Positions 24,595-49,402 of a DNA stretch of 64,000 nucleotides are shown here, in pieces. Numbering within the stretch: the stretch's first letter is position 1; every line of letters starts with the position of its first letter. Position numbers and translations under genes: made by a program. The notes beneath the pieces were generated by a model. It worked only from the letters and a program-made list of their open reading frames with translations. It was not told the origin of the DNA and did no database searches. Source of the stretch: Aliiroseovarius crassostreae (GTDB lineage Bacteria > Pseudomonadota > Alphaproteobacteria > Rhodobacterales > Rhodobacteraceae). The DNA is taken from assembly GCF_001307765.1 (NCBI RefSeq), contig NZ_LKBA01000007.1, forward strand, positions 1 through 64,000, given 5' to 3'.

Positions 24595-24998
24595 CGTCCC
24601 GTCGGGACGGCTTTTGCAAACGGACTGCACCGAGGTTCAACGGGCCGTTGGCCCGCTCACCCCGATCCAGACATCATTCTTTTTGTTTGGTCCGCCCAAC
24701 ATCCCTGACCGTGGCGGTCAACCTTAGTCCATCACCAAAATCAGCCACCAATTTCCCCTGTCTCGCGAGCGAGCCATTCCTCGCGAAGCAAATTGGCGTC
24801 TGATTTTGGCGCAGACATTTTCTTCGCAAATGTGACCGATTGACAGCCCCGTTCAGGGCCGTGGGTCGGGCTGTGCCCTCTCCCACTCTGTTCCGCCGAA
24901 TACATGCGTATTCGGTCAGATCAGGTGGCCGAGGCGCAGCCCATCGGCGGAAAGGGGCGTGAAGCCTCTCCCGCGTCACTTTGAACAGGAGGCCACAA
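24595..24998 (+). promoter_or_regulatory. Structured leader L1 upstream of truncated ardC
   Basis: A ~400-bp non-coding element repeated at 47524-47899 (L2) and in diverged form at 49014-49402 (L3). Hairpins visible are CGTCCC-GTC-GGGACG (24595-24609); CGGGCC-GTT-GGCCCG; a 75-bp long hairpin with 10-bp arms CCAAAATCAG/CTGATTTTGG (24735-24809) and inner CCAATTT/AAATTGG; CCGAATACATGCGTATTCGG (24896-24915); and an enclosing TTCCGCCGA/TCGGCGGAA (24891-24899 with 24944-24952). It ends AGGAGGCCACAAATG. Function is inferred: an RNA leader, a regulator site, or a promoter active on single-stranded DNA entering by conjugation. Confidence 0.7.
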
Positions 24999-25544
24999 AT
25001 GGCACCGAAATTTGATGTTTATGCCCATGTCACCGACACCATTATTGCAGAGATCGAGGCGGGCACGCCGCCTTGGCGCAAGCCGTGGACCGGAAGCGCG
25101 TCGGGCATTGCCCTGCCAACTCGACACAACGGCGAGGAGTATCGCGGGATTAATATCCTGATGCTCTGGGTCATGGCAGCAAAGCATGGCTATGTGTCCA
25201 GCCGCTGGATGACCTACAAGCAGGCGCGAGAGCTGGGCGGCCAAGTCCGCAAAGGCGAAACGTCGTCGACCGTGGTCAAATACGGGACGTTCACCCGAGA
25301 AAACGAACTGGGCATTGAGGAAGAACTGCCCTATGCGCGCGCATACCGCGTCTTCAACGCGGATCAGATCGAAGGTTTGCCGGAGGAGTACTACATCCGT
25401 CCCGAGGCCCCGCGCGATCTTGGCACTGAGGTTGATCCCGACGGTGGTCGAAGTTCAAGAGGGAAGGCATTGGCGAGGAATTTTGGATGGCAAAATCGTC
25501 TGCCACAAAAGCACAGCACTATACGGCAGCAGTGTGAGTTGTAG
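24999..25544 (+). pseudogene. ardC: ArdC antirestriction gene, C-terminal metallopeptidase domain lost
   Basis: The first ~142 residues match the complete ArdC at 47900 nearly residue for residue (KFDVYAHVTDTIIAEIEAGT, the ssDNA-binding N-domain) up to RPEAPRDLGT. At ~25427 the sequence switches to unrelated DNA with ~40 foreign codons to TGA-25544. The HExxH peptidase domain is missing. The N-domain alone could still bind DNA. The foreign tail, read in another frame (VEVQEGRHWRG, GKIVCHKSTALYG), looks like the end of some other protein, unidentified. Confidence 0.85.
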
Positions 25545-25644
25545 TTCTAACCCATAGATAAATGCATACGATTGCCAAGTGCCAGAGTCGCTGGCGCTTG
25601 GCTGGCAAGTAGTGATTAGCTTTACTTGCACGTGTGCTTGTTTA

Positions 25645-25719
25645 CTAATTCGCCAAGCCGCCGCGCTTGGCACTGAAGAACAGGGGAGCATGGGGTTTGC
25701 TGACGTGACGCGGAGGCGT
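25645..25719 (-). pseudogene. Remnant of a XerC-like tyrosine recombinase
   Basis: Reading leftwards, about 24 codons give TPPRHVSKPHAPLFFSAKRG and then a stop. This matches PRHISKPGAPLFFSAKRGG of the intact recombinase at 28796-29368. Both sides are unrelated. The remnant and the intact gene bracket the DUF4297/ATPase pair. The remainder of 25545-25956 shows no gene; hairpins based on GCCAAG at 25574-25671 partly fall in this remnant. Confidence 0.7.
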
Positions 25720-25956
25720 CTCTTACGGCCCGTGCTCCAGCTGGCTTTGGAACAGTGACGACGGGATAAAGCAAATCGTCAGTGAATCGTTTGAATCCAG
25801 TTGAGTTGCGAAAGGCTCACTAGCCAATATTGCAACCTAGCGCTAGTAGACTGGGCCCTTTCTTTGAAAAAACGGATGAAAGCTCACATCATTTGTTGTC
25901 AGCGCTGTGTAGTTGAGTAGAGTGCACTCTATGGTTGTCTGATTTGGGCCAAAATT

Positions 25957-27018
25957 GTGAGTAGTTTTAAGAATAAGCTGGAAACCACGCCGCCTAGAGA
26001 AGATAGCGGTGCGCCAACAAATAGTAGATACCATTACCAAGCCTTATGCGGTCTGGTTCTTGTCCTGGAGCGACACAAATTGGATGGCGACTATGCTTTG
26101 GTGTTTGAATATCATGACGATATAGCTGTTTTTGACGACCAATGTGCGCCTCAGAGCGTTCAGTTTTATCAAGTGAAGTCAAAAAAAAGCGGCAACTGGA
26201 CACCAGCATCGCTAACCAAGCGTGACAAGGAAAAAGGTGACTCTGCGCGTTCGTTTTTGGGGAAAATGTATGAAAATGTGATTTCATTTGGCGACAGCGT
26301 GGAATCAGCAACATTTCTTTCAAATGCACCAGCAAACTTTTCGCCAGCGAACAAATCAAATTTTTGCCTGAGCGAGTGCGACGACGAAAGTCTCAAAAAA
26401 ATCACTAAAAAACTTGAGGAAGAATTCTCAGGTGAAGACACCATTAAGAGTGAGCTACTTTGGGTCTCACAAACAGACCTAAGTTTGGAAGATGCGGACG
26501 CGCACGCGAAAGGTAAGTTGGATGCCTTCGTGGTTGAAAATTTGGGTGAGGTCGAGTTTTCTTTGGCGGCGTTGTTCAAAGCGGTTTCTGAGGAATGCGA
26601 TAGAAAATCGCGTGCCGCAGATGTTGATCTAAGCGATTTCGATGAAGTTGTGTCGCGCCGCGGCATAACTCGAGTTGACACAGACAGTTGGTTGCAAATC
26701 GTTTCTTCTACTGTGAACTGCCCAAAGTGGGAACAGATTGCACCTGATATTCAATTGCCAGCACTGCAAAAAATTCGCTTGGGGCAGGAATGGAACGCCT
26801 ATCGTGTTGCAGTTCTAAATCCAAATGAGGCAGTGCGGAAAGTGCGTCGCATGATCTCAAACTATATCCAGGACAACGACTTGGATGCACTGAGTTTGAA
26901 CGAGCTAGTAAACCAAGTTTATGCAGCGGTCGCATCAGAAGCTCGAGCGGAGCTAAGAACAGCCACGGACCAACGAATAAGGGCGATGATTTTATATGAA
27001 GCGTATTCAATCGACTAA
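25957..27018 (+). CDS. DUF4297/Cap4-like dsDNA nuclease effector of an ABC-three-component defence pair
   Basis: A 353-residue protein. The N-terminal ~130 residues match the DUF4297 (Cap4) PD-(D/E)xK nuclease pattern: SRYHYQALCGLVLVLE, FEYHDDIAVFDD (acidic metal ligands) and QFYQVKSKKSG (the Q-x-K). The C-terminal ~200 residues, with FSLAALFKAVSEECDRK and FDEVVSRRGITR, resemble the ABC-3C C-terminal module that couples effectors to an SMC-like ATPase. Start GTG 25957 has a poor ribosome site. Low GC and flanking recombinase sequences point to transfer. Expected role: abortive DNA cleavage upon phage or plasmid entry, controlled by the next gene. Confidence 0.75.
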   Translation: MSSFKNKLETTPPREDSGAPTNSRYHYQALCGLVLVLERHKLDGDYALVFEYHDDIAVFDDQCAPQSVQFYQVKSKKSGNWTPASLTKRDKEKGDSARSFLGKMYENVISFGDSVESATFLSNAPANFSPANKSNFCLSECDDESLKKITKKLEEEFSGEDTIKSELLWVSQTDLSLEDADAHAKGKLDAFVVENLGEVEFSLAALFKAVSEECDRKSRAADVDLSDFDEVVSRRGITRVDTDSWLQIVSSTVNCPKWEQIAPDIQLPALQKIRLGQEWNAYRVAVLNPNEAVRKVRRMISNYIQDNDLDALSLNELVNQVYAAVASEARAELRTATDQRIRAMILYEAYSID

Positions 27019-27130
27019 GCTTGAGAACTACAAAACTTTAATTCGAAATCTGAGGAAAAAGCGGCATGAAAAGGCTGAAATTCAGAAAACTCTGGCTGCT
27101 ATCAAGTCGCGAAAAGAAAGCGAGAGTTGA
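26996..27130 (+). CDS. Possible 44-codon coupling ORF between the nuclease and ATPase genes
   Basis: ATG 26996 overlaps the end of the nuclease gene and the frame runs 44 codons (MKRIQSTKLENYKTLIRNL, rich in Lys/Arg/Glu) into the ATPase gene, ending TGA 27130. It might act as a translational relay, or be a shrunken version of the middle component found in many ABC-3C loci. It may also be chance; there is no homology evidence. Confidence 0.3.
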   Translation: MKRIQSTKLENYKTLIRNLRKKRHEKAEIQKTLAAIKSRKESES

Positions 27131-28760
27131 GGATTTTAGCAACCTGACAACAGCTGTTGTGGCTGACAATGACTTTGGGAAATCTAGTCTGGTAAAATCT
27201 TTATACGCTACGCTGGGTGCTGATCCTTCCAGAACGCCAGAACCTTGGAAAAATGCCAAAGTCGAGTCTCTTCTTGAGATTGAAGTGGACGGGAGCATAT
27301 TCTTTGTCCTCAAGCAAGCAGGGCGCTTTGCACTGTTTGATGAGGGGGGTAAGCTTACTTGGACAGGAAACTCAGTCGTCAAAGCGCTAGCTCCAAAGGT
27401 AGGGGAGCTTTTAGACTTTGAGGTGACACTGAAGCTAAAAGGGGGAAAGAATGCTGTTCCTCCACCAGCCTTCTGCTTTCTGCCATTCTATCTGGACCAA
27501 GAAAAGGGGTGGGTAGATACTTGGGCATCTTTTTCTGGGCTTGAAATGGTCAGCGCCTATAAGGACGATATCGCGCGTTACCACACTGGTATCCGACCAA
27601 AAGAATACTATCGATCCAAGGCAGCAAAGGATGAGGCAACAGTTGAAAGGGGGGAGCTTGCTCAGGAAAGAGCAGCGCTTACCAAAGCTAGGAAGAGGTT
27701 TAAGGATAAGCGGAAACATGTTGGAATTTCATTAGATGTGGGTACTTTTGAGGACAGAATTAAAGCGCTGTTGAAAGAACAAAATGCGCTGCAAAAATCT
27801 TATGATGAAATTCGCAATGAAATTTCACATTTGCAGGCTCAAAGAACCGCCTCGCAAGAAGAAGTGGAAATTGCCGCTAGGGTTTTGTCTGAGCTGGAAG
27901 CGGACATAAAATTTTCTCAAAAGTTAAGCGATGCTGAGATTGTATGCCCTGTTTGCAGTACTGTTCATGAAAACGACTTTGCAAATCGCTTTGGTCTGCA
28001 CAATGACGCTGACGCGTGCAGGATTGTTCTTTTGGAGTCGCGAGGGAAAGTTGAAAAACTGGAATCTGAAATATCGCTCCAACTGAAGAGTATCCCAGCA
28101 CTTCAAACCCGTATTGACCAAATTCAGTCCATACTTGAAGAGACAAGGGGACAAATCAAACTTGGCGACATGTTGCGCGACGAGAGCGAGCGCTTGGTAG
28201 ATGGTACTTTTGAAGAAGAAGAGCGCGCTATTGACGGCGATATTGGCGTGCTGAACGAAAAAATTGCTGCGGCCAAGAAAGAGATGAGTGCTTTCGAAAA
28301 GAAAGAACATAAGGACAAAATAATAGAATTCTACGCGGGCAAATTACGAGAATTTTGTACGAAACTTGGTGTTGAAAACGTTCCAAGCAATATGTGGGAT
28401 AATATTCGCCCCACAATTCGAGAGACAGGAAACAGGGCGCCGCGGCTGATACTCGCCTACTGCTATGCCGTTTTGCATACGATCAATGAGTTCTCTACTT
28501 CGTGTTTCTGCCCAATCGTCGTGGATACTCCACTTCAGCAGGATCCAGATCCTAAGAATTCAGAACGAATGATCAGTTTTGCGATAAATGAAAGACCAAA
28601 GGGAAGCCAGTTGGTTCTTGCGACTGGAAGTTTGCAGGGAGTGAATTTTGAAGGGCGGGAAATTAATCCTGTGAACAAAGAGCAGTTGCTACAAGCTGAG
28701 CAGTACGAGCCAGTTCGCAAGTTTATGTTGCCGTTTCTCAACGCAGTTCTCACGGACTAG
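27066..28760 (+). CDS. SMC/Rad50-like ATPase of the DUF4297 defence pair (LmuB/ABC-3C type)
   Basis: A 564-residue protein. KLWLLSSREKKARVEDF then a P-loop ADNDFGKSSLVKS (first Gly replaced by Ala) near residues 34-46. A long coiled coil (~180-420) holds a zinc-hook-like CPVC near 300. The C-terminal ATPase half includes RAPRLILAYCYAVLHTI and Walker B-like CPIVVDTPLQQ. The D-loop region is atypical, with Gln where many SMC proteins have Ser/Ala. Lamassu and ABC-3C systems use such an ATPase to sense abnormal DNA ends or replication structures and release the nuclease. It starts 47 bp after the nuclease stop. Confidence 0.75.
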   Translation: MKRLKFRKLWLLSSREKKARVEDFSNLTTAVVADNDFGKSSLVKSLYATLGADPSRTPEPWKNAKVESLLEIEVDGSIFFVLKQAGRFALFDEGGKLTWTGNSVVKALAPKVGELLDFEVTLKLKGGKNAVPPPAFCFLPFYLDQEKGWVDTWASFSGLEMVSAYKDDIARYHTGIRPKEYYRSKAAKDEATVERGELAQERAALTKARKRFKDKRKHVGISLDVGTFEDRIKALLKEQNALQKSYDEIRNEISHLQAQRTASQEEVEIAARVLSELEADIKFSQKLSDAEIVCPVCSTVHENDFANRFGLHNDADACRIVLLESRGKVEKLESEISLQLKSIPALQTRIDQIQSILEETRGQIKLGDMLRDESERLVDGTFEEEERAIDGDIGVLNEKIAAAKKEMSAFEKKEHKDKIIEFYAGKLREFCTKLGVENVPSNMWDNIRPTIRETGNRAPRLILAYCYAVLHTINEFSTSCFCPIVVDTPLQQDPDPKNSERMISFAINERPKGSQLVLATGSLQGVNFEGREINPVNKEQLLQAEQYEPVRKFMLPFLNAVLTD

Positions 28761-28795
28761 AGAAGAGACTGCTCGCGGGCAAAGTTCATGCTGGA

Positions 28796-29368
28796 CTAAA
28801 TTAATTCAATTGCGTTGCGCAGCTTGCTTTCATTGTAATCAATATAGCGTTGCGTAGTGCTAATGTCCTTGTGCCGCGCCAGTGCTTGTATCACACGCAC
28901 ATTAACACCCTTGTCTGCAAGCTCCGTCAAAAACTGCCTGCGACCGCTATGACTGCTTGCACCTTTAACGTTTGCTAAGTCGTAAAACCTGGCGAACAAG
29001 TTCACTATCGTTTGCGCGCTAAAGCCACCACGTTTTGCGCTGAAAAATAACGGCGCACCGGGCTTACTGATATGACGGGGGTAGGTTGCAGCATATGAAG
29101 CAAGAGCTGTATTTAATCGCTTGCTCACAAGCACAGTGCCAGCTTCATCTCCCTTTGTTTGCGTAGCTGCTAAATAAACCGTGTCACGCACGTTGCCATG
29201 TTCATCAAACACGTCGCCAACCTTCAGCGCAGCAATCTCACATGCACGCAGTCCAGCAAAAAAGCTGAATGCAAAAATTGCACGGTTTCGCGCGCTGTAG
29301 CGATGAGCGTCAATGACTGCGTAAACGCGTTTCTGTTCTGCTTGTGTCAGTAGCTTTGCGTGTTTCAT
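28796..29368 (-). CDS. XerC-like tyrosine recombinase, core-only form
   Basis: A 190-residue recombinase without the N-terminal arm/core-binding domain. Catalytic elements: Arg in AGLRACEIAALK, a GGFSAQ loop, HSGRRQF (H-x-x-R), LARHKDISTTQRYID (His and nucleophilic Tyr). Start ATG 29368 is followed by KHAKLLTQAEQKRVY, typical of short XerC-type proteins. It lies 35 bp past the ATPase gene, converging on it. Likely the integrase of the low-GC insert; a fragment of the same gene at 25645 marks the other side. Confidence 0.88.
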   Translation of the reverse strand: MKHAKLLTQAEQKRVYAVIDAHRYSARNRAIFAFSFFAGLRACEIAALKVGDVFDEHGNVRDTVYLAATQTKGDEAGTVLVSKRLNTALASYAATYPRHISKPGAPLFFSAKRGGFSAQTIVNLFARFYDLANVKGASSHSGRRQFLTELADKGVNVRVIQALARHKDISTTQRYIDYNESKLRNAIELI

Positions 29369-29844: not shown

Positions 29845-29922
29845 ATGATTTCTCCTTAAATATGTGGATTGGATTGAAAGTGGATTTATGTTGATGCTCT
29901 GCATCAACAGCTGAAGCTGTTC

Positions 29923-35890: not shown

Positions 35891-36223
35891 ATGGGAAAGA
35901 CGAAGAACGGAACACGCTATCCAGAGGAACTGCGCGCGCGAGCGGTGCGGATGGTCTTGGATCACGAGGAAGAATACGCGAGCAGATCGGCGGCAATCTT
36001 GTCGATCTCTCAGAAGGTTGGGTGCAGCAGGGACAGCCTGCGGATTTGGGTCAAGCAGCATGAAACAGATACCGGCAAACGTGACGGTATGACGACTGCC
36101 GAGCGGGATCGCATCAAGGAGCTTGAGCGCGAGAACCGGCAATTGCGTCAGGCGAACGAGATTCTCAAAAAGGCGTCTGCTTATTTTGCACAGGCGGAGC
36201 TCGACCGCCCATTCCGCAAATGA
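35891..36223 (+). CDS. IS3-family transposase OrfA
   Basis: 110 residues; N-terminal HTH (RYPEELRARAVRMVLDHEEE; VGCSRDSLRIWVKQHE) and a leucine-zipper-like segment (RIKELERENRQLRQANEILK) used for multimerisation. Its TGA overlaps the OrfB ATG (ATGA at 36220), so OrfB may be made by coupling as well as by the frameshift usual in the family. Confidence 0.93.
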   Translation: MGKTKNGTRYPEELRARAVRMVLDHEEEYASRSAAILSISQKVGCSRDSLRIWVKQHETDTGKRDGMTTAERDRIKELERENRQLRQANEILKKASAYFAQAELDRPFRK

Positions 36224-36822
36224 TTGCCTTCATCAAAGATCATCGCGGGGCGCATGGGGTCGAGCCGATCTGTAGAGTTCTCCAGATTGCCCCTTCGACG
36301 TTCTATGAGCGCCTTGCCATCGAACGTGACCCCAGCCGAGCTTCAGATCGGGCCAAGCGGGATGCGTATTTTTGCAAGGAGATGAAGGACGTTTGGGAGA
36401 AGAACCGTTCCGTCTACGGCGCGCGGAAGCTTTGGCACGCGATGAAGCGTGAGAAGATTGATATCGCCCGCTGCACCGTCGAGCGATTGATGCGCCAGCT
36501 TGGCATTCAAGGCGTCCGGCGCGGCAAGAAGGTCAAAACCACCCAGGGACAGCCTGCGGACCAATGCCCGCTGGACAAAGTCAATCGCCAGTTCCGAGCC
36601 TCCATGCCGAACGAGCTGTGGGTATCGGATTTTACGTTTGTTTCCACCTGGCGCGGGTTCGTCTACGTGGCCTTCGTGATCGACACCTTCGCGAACCGGA
36701 TCGTGGGCTGGAAGGCATCGACAACGCAGGACACGCAGTTTGTCCTGGATGCTCTTGAGCAAGCAATCCATGCGCGCAGGCCTACTGAGAACCTAATCCA
36801 TCATTCAGATCGCGGGTCTCAA

Positions 36823-39094: not shown

Positions 39095-40231
39095 CTAGGT
39101 CGCTTCATCTTGCGATCGAACCTGCCGATTCAGGCGCGCTAGCGGTTCGCTGAAAGCCGCTTCCAGTTTTTGGATATGAGCTGCAAGCCAACCAATCATC
39201 TCGGGCCACGCTTCTCTGTTGAAGCCTTCAAAAGGTTGAGCGTAGACGATGCGGCTTGCCTTCTTATCGTCCATGCGCCGCCAATCGAGTTCGGCCCCAA
39301 AAGCTGCTTCGATGGCATCTTTTTGACTATAGAGCTGATCGAACAACCATTTATTCTCGGCGGTTTCAGAGCGCTGCAAGCTTATCTCGACCCTCGCTTC
39401 ATCTCGCGAGAAGATCATCTGATAGGGGCAAGACCTAGTCCCAGACCCTGCGCTGAGCCAATGATCCTTGGTCGGGCTGATGTTCTGGTAAAGTGTAACG
39501 CCGTCGACACGCAGCTGTTCAAGGGCCGCTTCCCAGAAGTCTAAACGCAGCTTATGCCGCTTCTTCTGTGTGTCTTGGATGGCTTTCTCTTCGTTTTCTT
39601 TGCTCGACATCCCGATCATGAAGTCCGCCGCTTCCGGCGTCGGTATAATCTGCTGAATATCGACCATCAGCTCATCGCCAAACGCGTATGGTGTCACCTT
39701 GAAGCACTGCGCGCGAATTCCGCGGCTGAGGAGCCATAGGACCGTTGCTGTCACCTCGCGCCGAAAATTGGCTGCGATGAAGATCATCCTTTGGTCATTG
39801 CCTGGGTTTAGGACGGTCTCTTCCAGCTCTTCAACTTCCATAAACTCGCAGATCCCCACAGCCGCATTGCCACCACCCGCATAGCGGTCGAGGTATTGCT
39901 GATAGATGTCGACGATCTGCGTCTTGGTCAGGCCCGAGACGTAGGCGGTGTACTTCAGCGCCTGCCACGTCACATCTCTCCCGCTATCATCAAGCTTGTT
40001 CTCGATCACCACGAGGTTGCCGTCCTTGTCGAGCGCCAAGAGATCCAGGCGTTCACGGGTTTCATCAAACCCGTCGAACTCCTTCTGAATGATCAGCAAT
40101 TCTTCACCGAGGGCGTCAGGCTGGTTGGCCAGCCACTCCTGCAGATGGTCGCGCTCGCGCAGGTTCAACTCAGAAAAGCGCTTTTGGGACAGGCGGGACA
40201 AACGGTTTTTGTTCAAATCAACGCGGAACAT
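39095..40231 (-). CDS. PD-(D/E)xK nuclease-like protein with C-terminal DUF4268
   Basis: 378 residues. The N-terminal half has the restriction-nuclease pattern ERLDLLALDKDGNLVVIENK (D...E-x-K near residues 62-78) then GRDVTWQALKYTAYVSGL. The C-terminal third (LRLDFWEAALEQL; NKWLFDQLYSQKDAIEAAFG; WRRMDDKKASRI) is DUF4268. Such proteins accompany type I and other defence systems. It is 35 bp downstream of hsdR-2 on the same strand, probably the last gene of that operon, and may add a further nuclease activity. Confidence 0.8.
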   Translation of the reverse strand: MFRVDLNKNRLSRLSQKRFSELNLRERDHLQEWLANQPDALGEELLIIQKEFDGFDETRERLDLLALDKDGNLVVIENKLDDSGRDVTWQALKYTAYVSGLTKTQIVDIYQQYLDRYAGGGNAAVGICEFMEVEELEETVLNPGNDQRMIFIAANFRREVTATVLWLLSRGIRAQCFKVTPYAFGDELMVDIQQIIPTPEAADFMIGMSSKENEEKAIQDTQKKRHKLRLDFWEAALEQLRVDGVTLYQNISPTKDHWLSAGSGTRSCPYQMIFSRDEARVEISLQRSETAENKWLFDQLYSQKDAIEAAFGAELDWRRMDDKKASRIVYAQPFEGFNREAWPEMIGWLAAHIQKLEAAFSEPLARLNRQVRSQDEAT

Positions 40232-40266
40232 CGGCTAACTAACTCCAATAATGCGGTCGGCGGCGT

Positions 40267-43200
40267 TCAGTCCGCTGAGGTTTCCTCCTTGCCGACGATT
40301 GAATCATAAACTCGTTTCACTAGGCCGTTCGCAGCAGCCTCCCGAAACCGATCATCGTTCATTAATTTGGCAAAGATCTCTTCATTGCCTTCCATGCGTT
40401 CAATGAACATGCCTTCAAGCATGGAGTTGAAAACCAAGGAAAAATTGTCCAGCGTGTTTGCCCGCGCGGCTTCACGTAGCTTTTCTTTACCTGTTGCGAC
40501 CTCAACCACTTGATCGAAGAACAACTCATCAGCCTTGTCGAATTCGGTTCCAAACCGCTCATTCAACGTGTCGACCAGCAAACTAAGCTGGACAGCTTCA
40601 TCTTTAGAAACCCCTGATCCTACTTCCGTTGGCCCTTTCAATGGTTCAGCTTCACCTTGTGAAAGGTCGATGCCACCTTCGCTGATTTTCTGCAGGCGGT
40701 AGTATTGCAGCTCTACCTCGTCGCCGAGTTGGAATGGATCGTCCTCGGCGCGTTTCGGCAGTTTAGGGATAAGGAGACGAAGGTAGGTGTAGAGCTTCTC
40801 TTGGTCTGAATCCTGATATGGTACGACCTGGGACAAGAAAGCATAAAGGTTTCGGAAACTGGTGAGTTTGCCACGCAGTAGCTCGCGGTCGGCATCTTCC
40901 AGAGCCGCAAAGCGTTCAACGGCCAAGTCGATCAAAGCATTCATGTTGCGATGGTCGGAAGCAGTCGGTTCTTTGCGATTCTTGAACCAGATTTCACAAA
41001 CCTGATCAACTTCATCGCTGCCAAAAATACGCCATTCTTCGATAGAGTGCTGTAATTCGTAAAGTTGGTGCGGATCCGGCGCTTCTCCCGCGTCGGTGGT
41101 TTCGTAATAATCTTTAAATGATTGGAAAATCTCGTCGCGTTCGTTGACGAAATCCAAGACGAAAGTGTCTTCCTTGCCCGCTGTCCGTCGGTTGAGGCGA
41201 GACAGCGTTTGGACCGCCTGAATGCCTGACAAGCGCTTGTCGACATACATGGTGTGAAGCAAAGGCTGGTCGAAACCGGTCTGATATTTGTCGGCCACAA
41301 GCAGCACCTGGTATTCCTCCGTGCCGAACTTCTCGGGCAATTCGCTTTCTTTGATGCCCTTGTTCATCCCAACTTCAGTGTATTCCTTGTCGGGGAAGTC
41401 CGGATCCTTCACCGAACCGGAAAACGCCACCAGCGCCTTGATGTCGCCGTAGCCTTTGTCTTTGACATATTTGTCGAAAGCCAATTTGTAGCGAACAGCA
41501 TGTAAGCGCGATCCGGTGACCACCATCGCTTTGGCGCGGCCACCAATCTTATGCCGCGTATGATGGCGGAAGTGCTCGATGATGACTTCCACCTTTTGCG
41601 CAATATTGTGCGGGTGCAGGTTCATGAACCGCGCGAGCTGCTTGGCGGCCTTCTTGCGCGGCACTTCAGGGTCGTCTTCGATTGACTTGATGAGCCCGTA
41701 GTAGGCTTTGTAGGTCGTGTAATTCTTGAGCACATCCATGATGAAGCCTTCTTCGATGGCTTGTCTCATGGAGTAGTGGTGGAATGGGGGCTTCCCGTTC
41801 GGTCCCGGCTCATTGAACACAGCCAGCGTCTTAAATTTAGGCGTCGCGGTGAAAGCGAAAAAGCTGATGTTCTTCTGGCGTGGGCGTTTGAGCATCTCTT
41901 GGAACAGGGCTTCCTTCGCCTCGTCCGAAAGATTCTGCTCCTCTTCGTCATCGATGATCTGTTCGGCGATGGTTGCCGCAATGCCCTCTCGGTTCAGTAC
42001 CTTTCGCAGTTCCATGGCTGTCTCGCCACTTTGGGAACTGTGCGCTTCGTCCACGATAACGGCAAAGCTCTTGCCAGACGTATCGATCTGAACACCTTCG
42101 CCCTTTTTGGACAGCGTGTCCAATGCCTGCGCGATGAAAGGGAACTTCTGGATCGTGGTGATTACGATCGGCACACCGCCTGACAGCGCCTTCGCTAGCT
42201 GCTGAGTGTTCTCGTCGATCTTCTCGACCACGCCTTGCTTATGCTCGAACTGATAGATCGTATCTTGCAGCTGTTGATCCAGCACGCGCCGGTCTGTGAT
42301 GACCACCACCGTGCTGAACACCTTCTGGTCATTGTCATCATGCAGGCTCGACAAGCGGTGCGCCAGCCAAGCGATCGAGTTGGACTTGCCGGAACCAGCC
42401 GAATGCTGGACTAAGTAATTGTGGCTCGGACCCTTGGCTTTGGCATCGGCAACGAGGCCACGCACGACGTCCAGCTGATGATATCGCGGGAAGATCATCG
42501 TTTCCTTGCGCGATGTCTTGATCCCGCGCGCAGTCACGACCTTGGTTTCCTTGACCTCCAGATGAAGAAAGCGGGCCAGGATATCCATCAGGCTATCCTT
42601 GGTCAGCACCTCTTCCCACAAATAGGCCGTGCGGTAGTTGTCCTCATCCGGCGGATTACCCGCGCCGTGCCCATGCCCTTTGTTGAACGGCAAGAACACC
42701 GTCTTTGATCCGCTCAGCCGCGTGGTCATCGAGGCCAGATCGGTATCGACGGCAAAATGAACCAGCGTCCGTTCCTTGAAACGGAAAATCGGGCAGGTTG
42801 GATCGCGGTCAAACTTGTACTGCTTCTTGGCGTGTTCGACCGTCTGGCCGGACATCTGGTTTTTCAGCTCCATCGTCACGATGGGCAGGCCGTTAACCGA
42901 CAGCACCAGATCGAGCGACAGGCCCTTTTGCTTGGGGTCGAAATGCACCTGCCGCGTGGCGGTCAGGTGGTTGGCGGCATAATCAGCCAGCGCGTCGGGG
43001 TTCATGCCAGAGGCTGGCGCAAAATAGGCCAGCTTCCACGTCTTGCCGAAACACTTGAACCCGTGGCGCAGCACATGCAGCGAGCCCTTGCCCGACAGCT
43101 CCTTGCAGAGCGAGTCCAGCAGGGTGCTCTTGGCGCGGTCGCCGTGGAACTCCTGCAGGCTGGCCCAGCGTTTGGCCTGTGTCGCCTTGATGAAAGAAAT

Positions 43201-43326
43201 GACGTCATCAGGGAACAACCCGCGCTCGGCGTCAAAGCCGTAAGGATCGCCCAAGGCATATCCGCCCGTCGTGGTCAGGCTTTCGGTGATGGCATCTTCA
43301 AAACGGATTTCGGTATGTTTGCTCAT
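40267..43326 (-). CDS. hsdR: Type I restriction enzyme HsdR (system 2)
   Basis: 1019 residues. N-terminal nuclease LSLDLVLSVNGLPIVTMELK near residue 153, Walker A QHSAGSGKSNSIAW near 310, DEAH VIVDEAHSSQSGETA near 426, FTATPKFKTL, LVADKYQTGFDQP. It shares general architecture but limited identity with HsdR of system 1, so the two systems are independent acquisitions. It follows the 202-residue gene by 10 bp. All nuclease and helicase motifs are present. Confidence 0.95.
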   Translation of the reverse strand: MSKHTEIRFEDAITESLTTTGGYALGDPYGFDAERGLFPDDVISFIKATQAKRWASLQEFHGDRAKSTLLDSLCKELSGKGSLHVLRHGFKCFGKTWKLAYFAPASGMNPDALADYAANHLTATRQVHFDPKQKGLSLDLVLSVNGLPIVTMELKNQMSGQTVEHAKKQYKFDRDPTCPIFRFKERTLVHFAVDTDLASMTTRLSGSKTVFLPFNKGHGHGAGNPPDEDNYRTAYLWEEVLTKDSLMDILARFLHLEVKETKVVTARGIKTSRKETMIFPRYHQLDVVRGLVADAKAKGPSHNYLVQHSAGSGKSNSIAWLAHRLSSLHDDNDQKVFSTVVVITDRRVLDQQLQDTIYQFEHKQGVVEKIDENTQQLAKALSGGVPIVITTIQKFPFIAQALDTLSKKGEGVQIDTSGKSFAVIVDEAHSSQSGETAMELRKVLNREGIAATIAEQIIDDEEEQNLSDEAKEALFQEMLKRPRQKNISFFAFTATPKFKTLAVFNEPGPNGKPPFHHYSMRQAIEEGFIMDVLKNYTTYKAYYGLIKSIEDDPEVPRKKAAKQLARFMNLHPHNIAQKVEVIIEHFRHHTRHKIGGRAKAMVVTGSRLHAVRYKLAFDKYVKDKGYGDIKALVAFSGSVKDPDFPDKEYTEVGMNKGIKESELPEKFGTEEYQVLLVADKYQTGFDQPLLHTMYVDKRLSGIQAVQTLSRLNRRTAGKEDTFVLDFVNERDEIFQSFKDYYETTDAGEAPDPHQLYELQHSIEEWRIFGSDEVDQVCEIWFKNRKEPTASDHRNMNALIDLAVERFAALEDADRELLRGKLTSFRNLYAFLSQVVPYQDSDQEKLYTYLRLLIPKLPKRAEDDPFQLGDEVELQYYRLQKISEGGIDLSQGEAEPLKGPTEVGSGVSKDEAVQLSLLVDTLNERFGTEFDKADELFFDQVVEVATGKEKLREAARANTLDNFSLVFNSMLEGMFIERMEGNEEIFAKLMNDDRFREAAANGLVKRVYDSIVGKEETSAD

Positions 43327-43336
43327 AACTTACAAT

Positions 43337-43945
43337 CTATACGATAACTTTTTGCGTGTCGTTTTCCAAATCTTCGAGCGCCATTCCATCAACGTCACTG
43401 AACAGGTAGTGGCGAATGTCGGGGTAATCCTTCAAGTATTTGCCTTCCGGGTCCAAATCGGGTCCAGGGTTTTGGCAGTCCGTGAAAACGTACTTGGACA
43501 CCTCCAATTGAGCATCCTTGTTGGAATAGGCTGCGATCAGCTTGTGCAGCTGAAGCATGACGTCGGAGGCTGGGATGAACGTCCGCGCCTTCTTGAACTC
43601 GATGCAATAGGCCTTCAGCCGGTTTGCATGCGCCTGAAACAAGACAAAGTCGCATTTGCGCATCCAAGGGCGTTTGCCGTCGTCATCGAGGAAATGGAAA
43701 AGTGGGTTCTTGCAGGCATCGAGGCGCAGCCCAAGAACACGGCCCGAAAACGTCAGCTTGGCTTTTAGGCGTTCCTTGGTTGTCTCGTCCGTATCGGCCA
43801 ATACAAACTCGTTGGCTTCAAGCCCCTCGCGTTCTTTCGCTCGGCACAACTGACCGTAGTGCGGAATGTTGCTTTTCCCAACGCTTTCACGAGTGTCGAG
43901 GAATGTCTTCAAGTGATTGAAATAGCCATCGGCGTTTATTGGCAT
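43337..43945 (-). CDS. Unknown 202-residue protein inserted between hsdS and hsdR
   Basis: Begins MPINADGYFNHLKTFLDTRE. The middle contains CDFVLFQAHANRLKAYCIEF followed by KKA, compatible with a small PD-(D/E)xK-like fold (D...E-x-K), then ASDVMLQLHKLIAAY. It lies 2 bp after the hsdS stop and 10 bp before hsdR, so it is clearly part of the operon. Function unknown: an accessory nuclease or a modulator of HsdR assembly are possible. System 1 lacks it. Confidence 0.6.
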   Translation of the reverse strand: MPINADGYFNHLKTFLDTRESVGKSNIPHYGQLCRAKEREGLEANEFVLADTDETTKERLKAKLTFSGRVLGLRLDACKNPLFHFLDDDGKRPWMRKCDFVLFQAHANRLKAYCIEFKKARTFIPASDVMLQLHKLIAAYSNKDAQLEVSKYVFTDCQNPGPDLDPEGKYLKDYPDIRHYLFSDVDGMALEDLENDTQKVIV

Positions 43946-43947
43946 CG

Positions 43948-45207
43948 CTACGCAACCTTGATCTTTCCGGTCACAGCGTTGGTGATCAGGGCAGTGCGAT
44001 ACTCTCTAAGCTTCTTGATAGCCTTTTCTGCAGCCTTTTCCACATTGGAAATTTCCAATGTCTCTCGCTTGATGTGTGTAGCGATTTCTCTTTGTTCCTC
44101 AATCGGCGGAAGCGGGATGCGAAGTTTTGCAATATTGTCGACGGATAGCCCCGGCTGAGCAGCAGAAACTGAGTATTGGTTCAAGTTCATGGCTCGCAAT
44201 AGCTCGCCCATCCAATCGACGACGAATTCACGCAGTGGGTTGGCAACTAATGCATGTTCAGAGGCCCAAAATTTGCCCGAGGCATAATTGACGTTTCCGC
44301 ACAGAGCACCTTGCCTCCCCACCAAGACGAAATCGCCTTTGTGAGTATATCTGTCGGAATACCCACGAAACCCGTTGCCCCCATACACTGGAAAGTCGCC
44401 CGCGTCCGCAATGCTCCCCGAGGTGATTGCTTCACCGCTCCTTAGTTGAACGACGTGCTGAATTCTCGGGTTGATCCAATGTTGCGGCATCTCATCAAGC
44501 CAATCGATGCCGCTGGGTTTCATGGGTGCGTTGGGGTTGAGGCCTTTGGTGACGGCGTGGGTGATCAGCGCGGTGCGTTGTTCGGCCAGAAGGCGCAGAA
44601 GCTCTTCCTTCTTGGCGATCAGATCATCAATCTCGGTCGTCTTCTTATCCAAAAAATCCGCGATGGCGGTTTGTTCTTCGATAGGTGGTAGAACGAGATG
44701 AAGGTTTCCAGCTTGCTGAAAGTTTAGGCCCTCCCGAGATGTCCCATTTTCATTGGAGGTGACTTGCTCTTTGCCAATCGAGGAACAGAAGAAGGCGTGC
44801 AGAAACTCTGGGACGATTTTGGTTCTTTGGGGCCGAAAAATGCAAACGTGCTGATTTACATTCGCTGTTGGCAGATCGTCAGGAACGATCGAGCTACGGC
44901 CAATTGAGGCCCCAGTGATGTTCAAAAGCACATCGGCAGGCTGCACTCGCGTGTTGATTTGCTGTGCTTCGACCTCGGGCGTGACGTAAGCAACGTCTTT
45001 AAGGCGTAGACCATCGTCATAGACGTTCTGGCTTCTCAAAATCATGATGCCATCGTCGGTGTAGATTTCGGCTCCGCCACGTGGTGTCTTGCCACTGCCG
45101 ATGTAGTTGACCAGATACTTGATCTTTTTGGGCTCCCATCCCTCAGGCACTTGCCCAAGCCACGGGACGCCGCTGTCCTTGTATGTCGGATAAGGGGCGT
45201 AGCTCAT
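43948..45207 (-). CDS. hsdS: Type I specificity subunit HsdS (system 2)
   Basis: 419 residues with two complete target-recognition domains. Each is introduced by the family motif (DSGVPWLGQVPEGWEPKKIK; PSGIDWLDEMPQHW) and followed by a spacer helix (IADFLDKKTTEIDDLIAKKE; IATHIKRETLEISNVEKAAE). Overlaps hsdM by 4 bp. The TRDs are unlike those of system 1, so the recognition sequence should differ. Confidence 0.95.
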   Translation of the reverse strand: MSYAPYPTYKDSGVPWLGQVPEGWEPKKIKYLVNYIGSGKTPRGGAEIYTDDGIMILRSQNVYDDGLRLKDVAYVTPEVEAQQINTRVQPADVLLNITGASIGRSSIVPDDLPTANVNQHVCIFRPQRTKIVPEFLHAFFCSSIGKEQVTSNENGTSREGLNFQQAGNLHLVLPPIEEQTAIADFLDKKTTEIDDLIAKKEELLRLLAEQRTALITHAVTKGLNPNAPMKPSGIDWLDEMPQHWINPRIQHVVQLRSGEAITSGSIADAGDFPVYGGNGFRGYSDRYTHKGDFVLVGRQGALCGNVNYASGKFWASEHALVANPLREFVVDWMGELLRAMNLNQYSVSAAQPGLSVDNIAKLRIPLPPIEEQREIATHIKRETLEISNVEKAAEKAIKKLREYRTALITNAVTGKIKVA

Positions 45208-47393
45208 GCGGTGATACCCTTTAGCATCTCCATGATGTCGCGAGTGACATCCTCGATATCTTTTTCGATCTTCTCGAGCTTGCGTGGCGGTTCGTAGACA
45301 TAGAAATGCCGGTTGAGGGGGATTTCGTAGCCCATCTTGGTTTTCTTGTGATCGACCCAGGCGTCAGGCACATGCGGATGCACCTCGGCGGCCAGATAGG
45401 CCTCGACGTGTTCGTGCACGAGATCGGGCAGCTGATCATCGGTCAGCTCGCCTTCACCCGCGTTCAGCATGGGCAGCTCGATATCCTTGGGCAGCGGCAC
45501 CAGTTCGGTATCGCGCAGCTCGGTATCCGGCTCGGGGTTGCCTTTGGCGTCGGTGCAGGTGTCGGCGGTCTCATCCCGTTCCGACAGCGCGCTAAGGATC
45601 GCCTTGCGGATCGGCGCTTCGAGCTTGATGCCCGCAGATTTGAACGCGACGTTCAGCGTTTTGGTGAAGTCAGCACGGTTCTTGACCAGCGTATTTGGCA
45701 TGCCCTCCAGCACAGCAATGATCTGGGCCTGTAAAACCTTGCCTGCCTCTTCCTCCGCCGCGATGGCGGCACTGTCCTTGCGCTTCTTGCTTTCGGACAG
45801 CTTGGCAAAGGCGGTTTCGCCCGCCAGCCGTGCGATGCGTTCCGCACTGGCTTGGAAGTTCAGTTTGAGCGGGCGTTCGACCGTGATCTTGAGATACCCG
45901 AAATCGCGGTTGTCGAAGATCTTGGAACAAATCCGCTCTTTGGTTTCGCCGTCGATGATGACGCTCGAGGTGTCATCGTGTTTGAAGGCGGCATAAAGGC
46001 GGGTGATCTCGCCGATATGGTCTGGCTTGCCATCTTCGCCATCGCCAAGCTCATTGCGCTTGTTACCCAGGCTCTTGCGCATCTTCATGAAATGCTTGGT
46101 GCCGTCGATCAGCTGCACCTTACCGCGCCGCTCGGGCCGTTTGCGGTTCGAGACAATCCAGATGTAGGTGAAAATTCCGGTGTTGTAGAACATCTGATCC
46201 GGCAACGCGATGATCGCGTCGAGCCAGTCGTTCTCGATGATCCAGCGGCGGATATTGCTTTCGCCCGAACCGGCGTCGCCCGTGAAGAGGGGGGAGCCGT
46301 TGAAGACGATTGCGATCTTGGAGCCGTCGCCGCCGATCTCGGGGCTGGGGCGCATCTTGCTGATCATGGTTTGAAGGAACAAGAGCGCGCCGTCATTGAT
46401 GCGCGGCGTGCCCGCGCCAAAGCGGCCCGAAAAGCCAAGCGCGTCGGCCTCCTTCTGCACGATGGATTGCTGGGTTTTCCATTCCACACCGAAGGGCGGG
46501 TTGGCCATCATGTAGTGAAATTTCTTGTCTGGGTGTCCGTCCTCAGATTTCCCGTCACCAAGCGTGTCACCGAAGTGGATGTTGTCGATCGGTTCATCCT
46601 TGATGAGCAGGTCAGAACAACAGATCGCGTAGGACTCCGCGTTGTATTCTTGGCCGTAGAGGATCAGGTTGGCCTGTGGGTTCTGCTCGCGGATGTATTC
46701 CTCTGACACCGAAAGCATACCGCCGGTCCCGCAGGTCGGGTCATAGATCGTGCGGGCGATGCCGGGCGTGTAGACGTCTTCATCCTCGGTATACATGAGG
46801 TGGGCCATCAGGCGGATGACCTCGCGCGGGGTGAAGTGATCCCCGGCTTCTTCGTTGGCCTGTTCGTTGAACTTACGAACCAGCTCCTCGAAAACGTAGC
46901 CCATCTGCAGGTTGCTGACGCGGTCGGGGTGCAGGTCAACTTCGGGTTTGGCGAACTCTTGGATCACCATGAACAGACGGTTGGCGTTGTCGAGCTTCTC
47001 GATCTCGGCGTCGAAGCCGAACTTTGAGAAGATGTCCTTGGCCTTGGGGGAGAAGCCTTCGATGTAGGTAACTAGGTTGCGCGCGATGTTATTCGGATCA
47101 CCGAGCAACTTTTCAAAGTCATATTTGCTGACGTTGTAGAGCGGTTGCTCCCGGTCATCGGTTGCGGTCTTGCCGAGGATCTTGTGGATCGCGTCTTCAC
47201 TGTGGCCCTGGGCCTGCAGCTTTTCGTACTGTGCGAGCACTTTGTCTTTGTTTGGAGCGAGAACCAGATCCATGCGGCGCAGCACCGTCATGGGCAGCAT
47301 GACACGACGATACTGTGGGGGGCGGTAAGGGCCGCGAAGTTTATTGGCGATGCTCCAAATGAGGCCGACAAGTTTATCGTGGTTCTGATTCAA
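45204..47393 (-). CDS. hsdM: Type I methylase subunit HsdM (system 2)
   Basis: About 729 residues. N-terminal helical domain (LVGLIWSIANKLRGPYRPPQ), SAM motif DPTCGTGGMLSV near residue 222, catalytic MANPPFGVEWKTQQ near 298, and a long C-terminal region. TTG 47393 is preferred to a TTG 5 codons earlier because GAGGGC lies ~6 nt upstream. Both motifs are intact. First gene of the operon hsdM-hsdS-202 aa-hsdR-DUF4268, which points away from the ardC leader; promoters probably lie in 47394-47523. Confidence 0.94.
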   Translation of the reverse strand: MNQNHDKLVGLIWSIANKLRGPYRPPQYRRVMLPMTVLRRMDLVLAPNKDKVLAQYEKLQAQGHSEDAIHKILGKTATDDREQPLYNVSKYDFEKLLGDPNNIARNLVTYIEGFSPKAKDIFSKFGFDAEIEKLDNANRLFMVIQEFAKPEVDLHPDRVSNLQMGYVFEELVRKFNEQANEEAGDHFTPREVIRLMAHLMYTEDEDVYTPGIARTIYDPTCGTGGMLSVSEEYIREQNPQANLILYGQEYNAESYAICCSDLLIKDEPIDNIHFGDTLGDGKSEDGHPDKKFHYMMANPPFGVEWKTQQSIVQKEADALGFSGRFGAGTPRINDGALLFLQTMISKMRPSPEIGGDGSKIAIVFNGSPLFTGDAGSGESNIRRWIIENDWLDAIIALPDQMFYNTGIFTYIWIVSNRKRPERRGKVQLIDGTKHFMKMRKSLGNKRNELGDGEDGKPDHIGEITRLYAAFKHDDTSSVIIDGETKERICSKIFDNRDFGYLKITVERPLKLNFQASAERIARLAGETAFAKLSESKKRKDSAAIAAEEEAGKVLQAQIIAVLEGMPNTLVKNRADFTKTLNVAFKSAGIKLEAPIRKAILSALSERDETADTCTDAKGNPEPDTELRDTELVPLPKDIELPMLNAGEGELTDDQLPDLVHEHVEAYLAAEVHPHVPDAWVDHKKTKMGYEIPLNRHFYVYEPPRKLEKIEKDIEDVTRDIMEMLKGITA

Positions 47394-47523
47394 AGGATTT
47401 GCCCTCAACTGCTCAAGATTGTTGCAGGCAATTTATGCGTAATTTCGGTCGTTTACCATCCAAATTACGGAGTAGCGTATAAACGCTTCACTTTCTGGTT
47501 GTGTGTTTTTGTGGGTGATTGTG

Positions 47524-47899
47524 TCTGCACCGGGGCTCAACGGGCCGTTGGCCCGCTCACCCCAATCCAGACATCATTCCTTTTCTTTGGTCCGCCCAAC
47601 ATCCCTGACCGTGGCGGTCAACCTTAGTCCATCCCCAAAATCAGCCACCAATTTCCCCTGTCTCGCGGGCGAGCCATTCCTCGCGGGTCAAATTGGCGTC
47701 TGATTTTGGCGCAGACATTTTCTTCGCAAATGTGGCCGATTGACAGCCCCGTTCAGGGCCATGGGTCGGGCTTTGCCCTCTCCCACTCTGTTCCGCCGAA
47801 TACATGCGTATTCGGTCAGATCAGGTGGCTGAGGCGCAGCCCATCGGCGGAAAGGGGCACTAAGCCTCACCCGCGTCACTTTGATCGAGGAGGCCACAA
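47524..47899 (+). promoter_or_regulatory. Structured leader L2 upstream of ardC
   Basis: Near copy of L1 from CTGCACC onward. Keeps CGGGCC-GTT-GGCCCG, the long hairpin CCAAAATCAG/CTGATTTTGG (47635-47709), CCGAATACATGCGTATTCGG (47796-47815) and TTCCGCCGA/TCGGCGGAA (47791-47799 with 47844-47852). Motif CATTCCTCGCGGGTCAA is at 47675. Differences from L1 fall mainly in loops. Ends GAGGAGGCCACAA before the ATG. Confidence 0.7.
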
Positions 47900-48778
47900 A
47901 TGGCACCGAAGTTTGATGTTTATGCGCATGTCACCGACACCATTATTGCAGAGATCGAGGCGGGCACGCCGCCATGGCGCAAGCCGTGGACAGGGAGCGC
48001 GTCCGGCATTGCCCTGCCGACCCGACACAATGGCGAGGAGTATCGCGGGATTAATATCCTGATGCTCTGGGTCATGGCGGCCAAGCATGGCTATGTTTCG
48101 AGCCGCTGGATGACCTACAAACAGGCGCAGGAGCTTGGCGGGCAGGTCCGCAAAGGTGAGACGTCGTCCACCGTGGTCAAATACGGGACTTTCACCCGAG
48201 AGAACGAGCTGGGCATCGAGGAGGAGTTGCCCTATGCGCGCGCCTATCGCGTGTTTAACGCGGATCAGATCGAAGGTTTGCCGGAGGAGTACTACATCCG
48301 GCCCGAGGCCCCGCGCGATCTTGGCACGGCCGAAGATCCTGAGCTTGAGGCGTTTTTCAACCGAACAGGGGCAGAGATCCTCACCAGCGACGACCCGCGC
48401 GCCTACTACAGCCCCGCCAAAGATCACATCCACATGCCGCCGATTGCCACCTTTCACGATGCGGCAGGCTATTATGGGACGTTGGCCCATGAGGTGATCC
48501 ATTGGACCGGCAGCGAAAAGCGGCTGGAGCGGATCAAGAAATTTGCGAACCGCGAAGCCTATGCCTTTGAAGAGCTGGTGGCGGAAATTGGCGCTTGCTT
48601 CCTTGGTGCTCAGATTGGCGTCGCGCCGGCATTCGGTCAAAGCGCCGCCTATGTTGAAGGGTGGTTGAAAGCGCTCAAAGAAGACAAACGGGCGATTTTT
48701 CGCGCGGCGTCCGAGGCGCAGAAGGCAGCCGATTTTGTCCTAGCAGCCGCAGGTCAATCGAAAGCGGCCGCAGCATGA
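47900..48778 (+). CDS. ardC: ArdC antirestriction protein
   Basis: 292 residues. N-terminal ArdC ssDNA-binding domain (residues 1-~140: TIIAEIEAGTPPWRKPW; YRGINILML; RKGETSSTVVKYGTF). The C-terminal zincin-like metallopeptidase has AHEVIHWTGSEKRLER (HExxH) near residue 197 and a downstream FEELVAEIGACFLG acid ligand. ArdC proteins protect incoming single-stranded plasmid DNA from type I restriction early in conjugation. Complete, unlike the copy at 24999. The stop overlaps the next gene (ATGA). Confidence 0.93.
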   Translation: MAPKFDVYAHVTDTIIAEIEAGTPPWRKPWTGSASGIALPTRHNGEEYRGINILMLWVMAAKHGYVSSRWMTYKQAQELGGQVRKGETSSTVVKYGTFTRENELGIEEELPYARAYRVFNADQIEGLPEEYYIRPEAPRDLGTAEDPELEAFFNRTGAEILTSDDPRAYYSPAKDHIHMPPIATFHDAAGYYGTLAHEVIHWTGSEKRLERIKKFANREAYAFEELVAEIGACFLGAQIGVAPAFGQSAAYVEGWLKALKEDKRAIFRAASEAQKAADFVLAAAGQSKAAAA

Positions 48779-48954
48779 GCGGCCCCGCAATCCTGCCCCC
48801 GATGACGTGCCGCAAATGCGGCGCGTCAAATCCGGTGATCTTTCTTGCGCCGGTCATCGTGACAGGCAGTGGCACCTGTATTTGCTTGGACTGCGCAGAG
48901 GCGCGCGAATGGCTGGATCCGGACGGCAACTTGAAAGCCGGTATTGAGCTTTGA
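48775..48954 (+). CDS. Small zinc-ribbon protein coupled to ardC
   Basis: 59 residues, ATG overlapping the ardC stop. Two Cys pairs (MTCRKCGASNP and CICLDCAEAREW) suggest a zinc ribbon. Unknown role; the overlap indicates co-expression with ArdC, probably in establishment after transfer. Confidence 0.7.
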   Translation: MSGPAILPPMTCRKCGASNPVIFLAPVIVTGSGTCICLDCAEAREWLDPDGNLKAGIEL

Positions 48955-49013
48955 GCACCTGCGCCCCGCCTCACGTGGCGGAGCGTAGGCCTCGGGGGAT
49001 GAAATGAGAAATT

Positions 49014-49402
49014 GTGGCCCGTGCTGCTGCGCACGGGCCGCTCTGAGAAACGGACTGTGCGGAGGATCGGCTGGCTTTCAGCCCGCTCACCTCCTTCAGG
49101 CTTCTTTCAATTTGATTGGTCCGCCCAACATCCCTTTCGCGTCCCGTCAATGGGCAAGCGCCGCGCGTGCGCGTCGTCAAAGCCTGCAACCCGTGTCCTC
49201 GCGCGGGGCGCGCTGCGGGCCGCGCCAGTTGCTGGCTTTGACCCATTGACTGGCCGCTCCGGGGCCGTGGGTCGGGCTGTGCCCCCACCCACTCTGTTCC
49301 GCCGAATACATGCGTATTCGGTCAGATCAGATTGGCCGGTGTGCAGCCCATCGGCGGAAGGGGAGCCAAGCCCCAACCGCAGCAGCCAAGAGGAGGCCAC
49401 AA
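49014..49402 (+). promoter_or_regulatory. Structured leader L3 (diverged member)
   Basis: Shares with L1 and L2 the 5' hairpin position (here GGCCCGTG/CACGGGCC at 49016-49039) and AAACGGACTG (as in L1). A hairpin before CTCACC is now CGGCTG/CAGCC(C)G instead of CGGGCC/GGCCCG. GGTCCGCCCAACATCCCT, CCGAATACATGCGTATTCGG (49302-49321), TTCCGCCGA/TCGGCGGAA (49297-49305 with 49351-49359) and AGGAGGCCACAA before the ATG are kept. The long CCAAAATCAG hairpin is replaced by other sequence. Preserved pairings despite changed bases argue for structure. Confidence 0.7.

Follow-up and report, generated by a model that had tools for sequence, protein, structure and literature searches.

A family of structured leaders ahead of plasmid genes in Rhodobacterales, with a fold conserved on the strand opposite the gene: candidate promoters on incoming single-stranded DNA

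Leaders and genes at the locus

The analyzed stretch of DNA, hereafter called the window, comprises the first 64,000 nucleotides (nt) of contig NZ_LKBA01000007.1 (assembly GCF_001307765.1) of Aliiroseovarius crassostreae, a member of the Rhodobacterales. Its plus strand carries three long leaders, L1 at 24595–24998, L2 at 47524–47899, and L3 at 49014–49402, which had been recognized in an initial annotation made from the sequence alone and were recovered where that annotation had placed them, together with the motifs it described. They are copies of a large family of leaders found ahead of varied plasmid genes. L2 precedes an intact ardC gene (47900–48778, plus strand; ArdcN PF08401 and MPTase-PolyVal PF18818 in Pfam), which with 292 amino acids (aa) does not fit its earlier description as a small gene. 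L1 precedes a truncated ardC copy (24999–25544, plus strand), delimited by its open reading frame (ORF) and by a duplication alignment, and L3 a plus-strand gene (49403–49711) for a 102-aa protein of unknown family, to which Pfam assigned no family at E ≤ 0.01.

L1 and L2 are not independent examples, because the regions 24625–25426 and 47525–48327 represent one duplication (803 aligned columns, 93.3% identity) that extends into ardC. The ardC copy behind L1 is broken; its ORF spans 24981–25544 and is ardC-like until approximately position 25426. L3 is a diverged copy with 82% identity to L1 across the 3′ half.

All three leaders contain CCGAATACATGCGTATTCGG (starting at 24896 in L1, 47796 in L2, and 49302 in L3), a hairpin preceding CTCACC with the arms CGGGCC/GGCCCG or CGGCTG/CAGCCCG, and AGGAGGCCACAA ahead of the ATG. 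The pair TTCCGCCGA/TCGGCGGAA, initially described as enclosing, is present in the window leaders as well, but was rejected as the enclosing stem of the whole family because only a subset of the relatives has it. TTCCGCC, which adjoins the apical hairpin, is also retained by a subset of relatives only. GGCGGA (alignment columns 271–276) is conserved far more broadly, and a TCCGCC (columns 31–36) is situated approximately 230–260 nt upstream. On the plus strand of the window, GGCGGA occupies 24946–24951 in L1, 47846–47851 in L2, and 49353–49358 in L3, 44–48 nt ahead of the respective start codons. The “75-bp hairpin” reported for L1 and L2 exists, but measures approximately 75 nt in total. The leaders are presumably non-coding, as had been assumed: mechanically called ORFs run across them, yet a coding role is disfavored because the stems covary and indels occur.

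A covariance model of the conserved 3′ module (R1) was built from 23 sequences that included those of L1, L2, and L3, and located the module on the plus strand at 24836–24961 in L1 (131.8 bits), 47736–47861 in L2 (131.4 bits), and 49242–49368 in L3 (121.8 bits). A search of the whole window with Rfam at gathering scores placed no family on the leaders, and none matched them at E values up to 0.5 over positions 47480–49420. The only Rfam match in the window is unrelated to the leaders, an ALIL pseudoknot at 36178–36294; pseudoknots of this type are linked to IS3-type frameshifting.

Family size and gene context

A blastn comparison with 72,556 plasmid records identified L1-like DNA in 24 and L3-like DNA in 35 of them, chiefly from Rhodobacterales and also from Jiella and Ochrobactrum, whereas more divergent members used as queries matched 86 and 84 records. 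Within the order to which the window belongs, R1 matched 76 of 390 genomes in 39 of 139 genera, a lower bound, since nine candidates were scored per genome and strict filters were applied. A class sample of 385 genomes yielded one genome with a match besides the window's own. The family appears to be undescribed so far, as no report of it was found in the open-access literature that was searched.

The collection analyzed here comprises 147 elements, namely 149 aligned model matches minus two short reverse-strand self-matches; weaker matches, such as L150, missed the E value cut-off. Some elements are repeats from two collections or genomes (the locus pairs L010/L051, L020/L077, L070/L071, and L096/L097 hold identical elements), and alignments were therefore made from unique sequences, of which there are 140 in total, 135 with full flanks, 67 below 93% identity, and 54 below 90% identity. 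Two to five copies are present in 25 of the 114 fetched element-bearing loci; pFER2 of Paracoccus ferrooxidans, for example, carries three, and a Paracoccus sp. Arc7-R13 plasmid carries five. In one locus (L011), tandem elements of different subtype at positions 2199 and 2387 lie 188 bp apart ahead of a single DUF932 gene. The start of one leader-ardC unit (L099, 9900–10400) has 90–99% identity in 41 of 86 matching plasmid records from several genera, for example L151 (NZ_CP021046.1), and such near-identity across genera suggests recent spread.

A start codon was called after 146 of the 147 elements by a caller that demanded a Shine–Dalgarno-like match, and the distance from GGCGGA to the start has a median of 44 nt (10–90% range 41.5–50.5). 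BLAST clustering of the downstream proteins yielded 66 ArdC and 18 DUF3768 proteins as well as smaller groups of DUF1419, DUF3560, DNA methylases, and proteins of unknown family; the Pfam scan behind these names covered ten proteins, one or two per cluster, and the remaining members were assigned by BLAST linkage. Seven of the 146 elements for which a gene was called are followed by a member of the cluster of the 102-aa protein encoded behind L3. Genes for ssb, ParB-like, DUF932, and DUF4942 proteins are annotated nearby in several plasmids, and the leading region of plasmid F contains the same kinds of genes. The leader family also marks genes of unknown function as likely establishment genes. 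The open-access literature that was searched contained nothing on DUF3768 together with plasmids.

Defense genes lie near both ardC copies of the window. A Lamassu-type pair, LmuA and LmuB (PADLOC; 25957–28760), follows the broken copy behind L1, and a type I restriction-modification system at 39095–47408 (HsdM, HsdS, HsdR-like, and PDC-S11 matches in PADLOC) is located directly upstream of L2 and its ardC.

A covarying fold

Covariation among relatives, which the initial annotation had proposed as a check, was found: the main stems covary beyond controls. The calculation used our own script with a tree-based null instead of R-scape, applying a G-test with average-product correction and a null of 60 alignments simulated on the tree. 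In the sequence-only alignment of the 135 unique elements with full flanks, 12 of 39,060 column pairs reached E ≤ 0.5, and nine of these twelve are Watson–Crick pairs. The covarying pairs are mostly found in a long helix (P2; columns 43–66 with 160–182), in a hairpin designated A, in the apical hairpin, and in a loop-loop pair. In L2, as placed by sequence, the arms of P2 correspond to 47591–47621 (TCCGCC...GTCAA) and 47740–47769 (TTGACAG...TCGG), hairpin A to 47761–47786, and the apical hairpin with CCGAATACATGCGTATTCGG to 47796–47815, all of them as a fold of the bottom strand; the apical hairpin is at 24896–24915 in L1 and at 49302–49321 in L3. Hairpin A reads GTGGG/CCCAC, GCGGG/CCCGC, or GCAGG/CCTGC among the relatives.

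For the 35 pairs of P2, hairpin A, and the apical hairpin, 88.5% of the cells in the 67 sequences are paired (71.3% in shuffles) and the covariation score is 0.405 (0.152 in shuffles). Double-changed cells amounted to 404, compared with 157 in shuffles and 47–121 with slid partners, the latter comparison being biased towards the drawn structure since this structure was derived from that alignment. RNAalifold recovered few consensus pairs on these alignments. On the bottom strand, the loop of hairpin A is GNA in 60 of 114 unique cores and purine-N-A in 106; on the sense strand it is never GNA. The GNA triloop was nevertheless given little weight as a DNA signature because GCA occurs on the sense strand of a second hairpin in 28 of the 114 cores.

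The strand that folds

Helices of RNA tolerate G·U pairs, and an A·C combination on the sense strand corresponds to G·T on the opposite strand. Parsimony on the tree assigned approximately 44 changes in P2 to sense-strand A·C versus seven to sense-strand G·U, with Watson–Crick neighbors required and one doubly listed pair removed by hand. Background mutation cannot account for this excess, because unpaired columns have polarized transitions in about equal numbers in either direction (376 for C>T plus A>G; 379 for G>A plus T>C). Misalignment was rejected as well, as A·C cells outnumbered G·U cells in three further MAFFT alignments (74/23, 74/16, and 45/23) and in alignment A4 (54/25).

The folding energies point in the same direction. 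With DNA parameters, the excess over dinucleotide shuffles in the 54 sequences below 90% identity was 20.9 kcal/mol for the bottom strand, which lies opposite the gene, versus 12.3 for the sense strand, and the bottom-strand excess was larger in all 54 sequences. RNA parameters gave 23.6 versus 16.3 and a larger bottom-strand excess in 50 of 54. Both leader subtypes favored the bottom strand with DNA parameters (32/32 and 22/22), and so did all three window leaders, or two of the three with RNA parameters. The two copies of Frpo, a promoter of plasmid F that is active on single-stranded DNA (ssDNA), behaved in the same way under both parameter sets. In the controls, downstream coding DNA folded better as bottom strand in 25 of 54 cases (raw energies), whereas the sense strand was better for RNase P RNA in 21 (DNA parameters) and 18 (RNA parameters) of the 22 loci used out of 25, and for tRNA in 7 of 8 cases (raw energies). 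Evolution has thus preserved the computed fold of the strand opposite the gene. Taken together, wobble and energy asymmetry offer a way of asking from sequence data whether a structure functions in the DNA of the transferred strand (T-strand) or in mRNA.

Nick sites and the transferred strand

The T-strand can be read from the polarity of the nick motif, which is TAAGTGCG/CCCT in RSF1010 and CTATCCTG/C in RP4 (PMC4814116). The MOBQ nick TAAGTGCG^CCCT was found in 17 loci and is located on the strand opposite the gene of the element in all 17. YATCCTG^Y, the MOBP motif, was found ahead of mobC or the relaxase gene in 10 of the 40 loci examined, two of which (L010 and L051) represent one plasmid, and is also opposite the gene strand in 10 of 10; the chance expectation for this motif is approximately 5 over both strands of the searched stretches, and the 11 occurrences found are all on one strand. 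The T-strand is hence the template of the element's gene in 27 of the 27 loci with a recognized nick motif, counting both loci of the one plasmid.

Where a transfer gene is in view, 57 of 79 elements are situated upstream of it and on the same strand, which fits a leading region in MOBP plasmids. Of the 20 elements that were scored as upstream on the opposite strand, 16 depend on virD4 alone, and the remaining four are reversed copies; two small annotated MOBQ plasmids, NZ_CP021046 and NZ_CP004397, have a virD4 gene that faces away from ardC, mobQ, and the element. In four loci (L108, L109, L123, and L131), the MOBQ nick lies just 222–408 bp ahead of the 3′ module, so that the origin of transfer (oriT) and the element abut, perhaps as an oriT-leader-gene cassette.

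In the window, L2 with its ardC and L3 are oriented towards a mobC-like gene, a relaxase gene, and virD4, all on the plus strand. The first (50834–51424) was assigned by position and by weak, sub-threshold Pfam matches (helix-turn-helix; MobC, E 0.0042), the second (51366–53219; PF03432) and the third (53212–55104; VirD4/TraG-type coupling protein, PF02534) by Pfam. Just ahead of the mobC-like gene, a block conserved in relatives reads TATTTCTTGCCA on the bottom strand at 50806–50817 and resembles a MOBP nick. Its conservation and its inexact likeness to TATCCTG^C lead us to propose TATTTCTTG^CCA as the nick region of the oriT, in which case the bottom strand would be the T-strand of the window. 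A candidate defense protein (PDC-S06; 55296–57950) is encoded between virD4 and the genes for TrbL/VirB6 and VirB11-type proteins, and defense genes are thus inserted inside the transfer region.

Proposed function and alternatives

The family, its covarying fold, the bias of this fold towards the strand opposite the gene, and the identity of the T-strand in the 27 nick-motif loci are observations. The fold is kept opposite the gene, and on the transferred strand wherever this strand can be read, and it is most simply explained by a promoter that takes shape as the plasmid enters the cell in single-stranded form. We consider it probable that the leaders are T-strand hairpin promoters active while the plasmid is single-stranded, similar to Frpo in action and unrelated to it in sequence. 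The T-strand (in the window presumably the bottom strand) would fold into a large branched structure in which two or three hairpins accompany P2, a long and imperfect duplex. On the model of Frpo in F, RNA polymerase would be recruited to the folded DNA and transcribe the T-strand, ardC and neighboring establishment genes would be expressed ahead of second-strand synthesis, and conversion to the duplex would destroy the structure and switch the promoter off. Arriving plasmids could thereby make protective proteins immediately. ArdC of R388 is required in the recipient but not in the donor, and acts against type I restriction (PMC7213743).

This agrees in part with the first of two options offered by the initial annotation, namely Frpo-like promoters or single-strand initiation (ssi) sites controlling establishment genes: strand asymmetry, nick strand, gene content, and the comparison with Frpo speak for it, whereas similarity to Frpo and recognizable −35/−10 boxes are lacking. 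The second option, a new regulatory RNA family, is disfavored by the same data.

Several observations weigh against a T-strand promoter. Outside P2 the helices are mixed (G·U/A·C: P3 8/3, hairpin A 6/9, inner stem 0/1, apical hairpin 12/9, loop-loop 9/2), and the wobble signal therefore rests on P2; the long-range loop-loop pair (columns 231–261), with five G·U and no A·C cells, even has an RNA-like direction. One element cut by a contig end (L080_83m) folds better as the sense strand. Not every RNA behaves as expected in the energy test, as cobalamin riboswitches (27 of 30 loci used) had no sense bias, the antisense strand being better in 16 of 27 with RNA parameters and in 20 of 27, by 1 kcal/mol, with DNA parameters. 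An RNA made from the bottom strand would produce the same asymmetry in wobble and energy. In the 17 MOBQ loci the elements are located 222–4524 bp from the nick on its trailing side and would therefore enter the recipient last. Four copies (L076_5878m, L079_6789m, L112_6259m, and L117_9930p) are reversed relative to the transfer genes, that of L112 lying between ardC and mobC on the minus strand of P. albus p2 (61526–61642), and a fifth (L116_9849m) is ambiguous; because the reversed copies fold better on the template strand of their own gene, the fold preference tracks the gene template and not strictly the T-strand. No full MOBP motif was found beside the oriT of the window; ATCCTG occurs there once (50251), on the plus strand and with A as the next base. 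Finally, a linear scan for sigma70 boxes detected no conserved −35/−10 pair (mean z −0.43 versus shuffles), a weak result because it detected no clear boxes in Frpo either.

Two of the reversed copies, L112_6259m and L117_9930p, have a common downstream gene of approximately 117 aa, a differing apical hairpin, and a start codon almost immediately after the element.

More tentatively, the T-strand promoter could be conceived as a large ssDNA regulator, multi-branched, tuned by evolution, riboswitch-like in complexity, and functioning only while the plasmid is single-stranded, which would use DNA features such as purine-rich triloops, recruit the polymerase of the host without ordinary −35/−10 boxes, and have spread as a cassette ahead of many establishment genes in Rhodobacterales; we regard this as possible rather than probable.

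Among the alternatives, a large cis-regulatory RNA in the 5′ untranslated region of the mRNA, riboswitch-like or protein-binding and controlling translation through a fold of the sense strand, fares best. It would explain the strong covariation, the nearly fixed spacing between GGCGGA and the start codon with its Shine–Dalgarno sequence (which the caller required), and the RNA-like loop-loop pair. However, the A·C excess in P2 is the opposite of what an RNA helix tolerates, the bottom strand folds better in 54/54 (DNA parameters) and 50/54 (RNA parameters) sequences, which is the reverse of RNase P RNA, and no Rfam family matches, so that this alternative appears unlikely. Still less likely is that the folded T-strand is not mainly a promoter but an ssi site, where priming or primosome assembly for second-strand synthesis takes place, or a place where a plasmid ssDNA-binding protein attaches. 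The same evidence for a T-strand fold applies here, and the title of a 1997 paper by Masai and Arai reportedly presents Frpo as a promoter and also as a site where primer RNA is made, but two to five copies in 25 of 114 loci, each at near-fixed spacing to a start codon, would be needless for priming alone. Least probable of all is that the bottom strand gives rise to an RNA, structured or antisense, that regulates the neighboring gene. Such an RNA would show an identical wobble and energy bias, but is disfavored by the near-constant distance between the end of the element and the start codon of a gene on the opposite strand, by the many unrelated genes that the element serves, and by the agreement of the element's strand with the transferred one in all 27 nick-motif loci.

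Comparison with known systems

Frpo1 and Frpo2 of F are reported to provide early and transient expression that is switched off upon duplex conversion, and to rebuild canonical −35 and −10 boxes (PMC9849209). Like these, the leaders are hundreds of bases long, repeated on the plasmid, and located directly ahead of establishment genes; both fold better on the template strand according to computation, and both have similar neighbors (ParB-like, DUF932, methylase, antirestriction, and ssb genes). In contrast to Frpo with its canonical boxes, the leaders have a branched, covarying fold without recognizable −35/−10 boxes, belong to another bacterial class, and in MOBQ plasmids occur on the trailing side as well. 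Searches covering the F stretch and 12 loci gave a best blastn E value of 0.7 and no nhmmer match between leaders and Frpo. The leaders thus probably work like an ssDNA promoter, yet outside the Frpo sequence family.

Samuel et al. (2024) performed BLAST searches with five known Frpo/ssi sequences and with candidates taken from the islands in Fig. 2a–d of their article (PMC11541004), and their Frpo-like candidates are likewise ssDNA promoters ahead of anti-defense genes on the T-strand of the leading region; the main text of that article contains neither the word Rhodobacter nor Alphaproteobacteria nor ardC. The STAXI motif (Weinberg et al., 2010; PMC2864571) is also structured, occurs near ssDNA-binding and antirestriction genes, and has been considered for a role in ssDNA. 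It differs from the leaders in being enterobacterial and in consisting of tandem pseudoknots with UUCG loops, and it was absent from the Rfam matches obtained here.

The 140 unique copies of the leader family represent a natural mutation series in which the strand question can be tested. The ssDNA promoters described in PMC11541004 and PMC9849209 belong to F and ColIb-P9 or are related to these in sequence. If the unrelated family of the Rhodobacterales acts in the proposed manner, early expression from the incoming strand would have evolved more than once, and it may be a general route by which plasmids disarm the defenses of the recipient.

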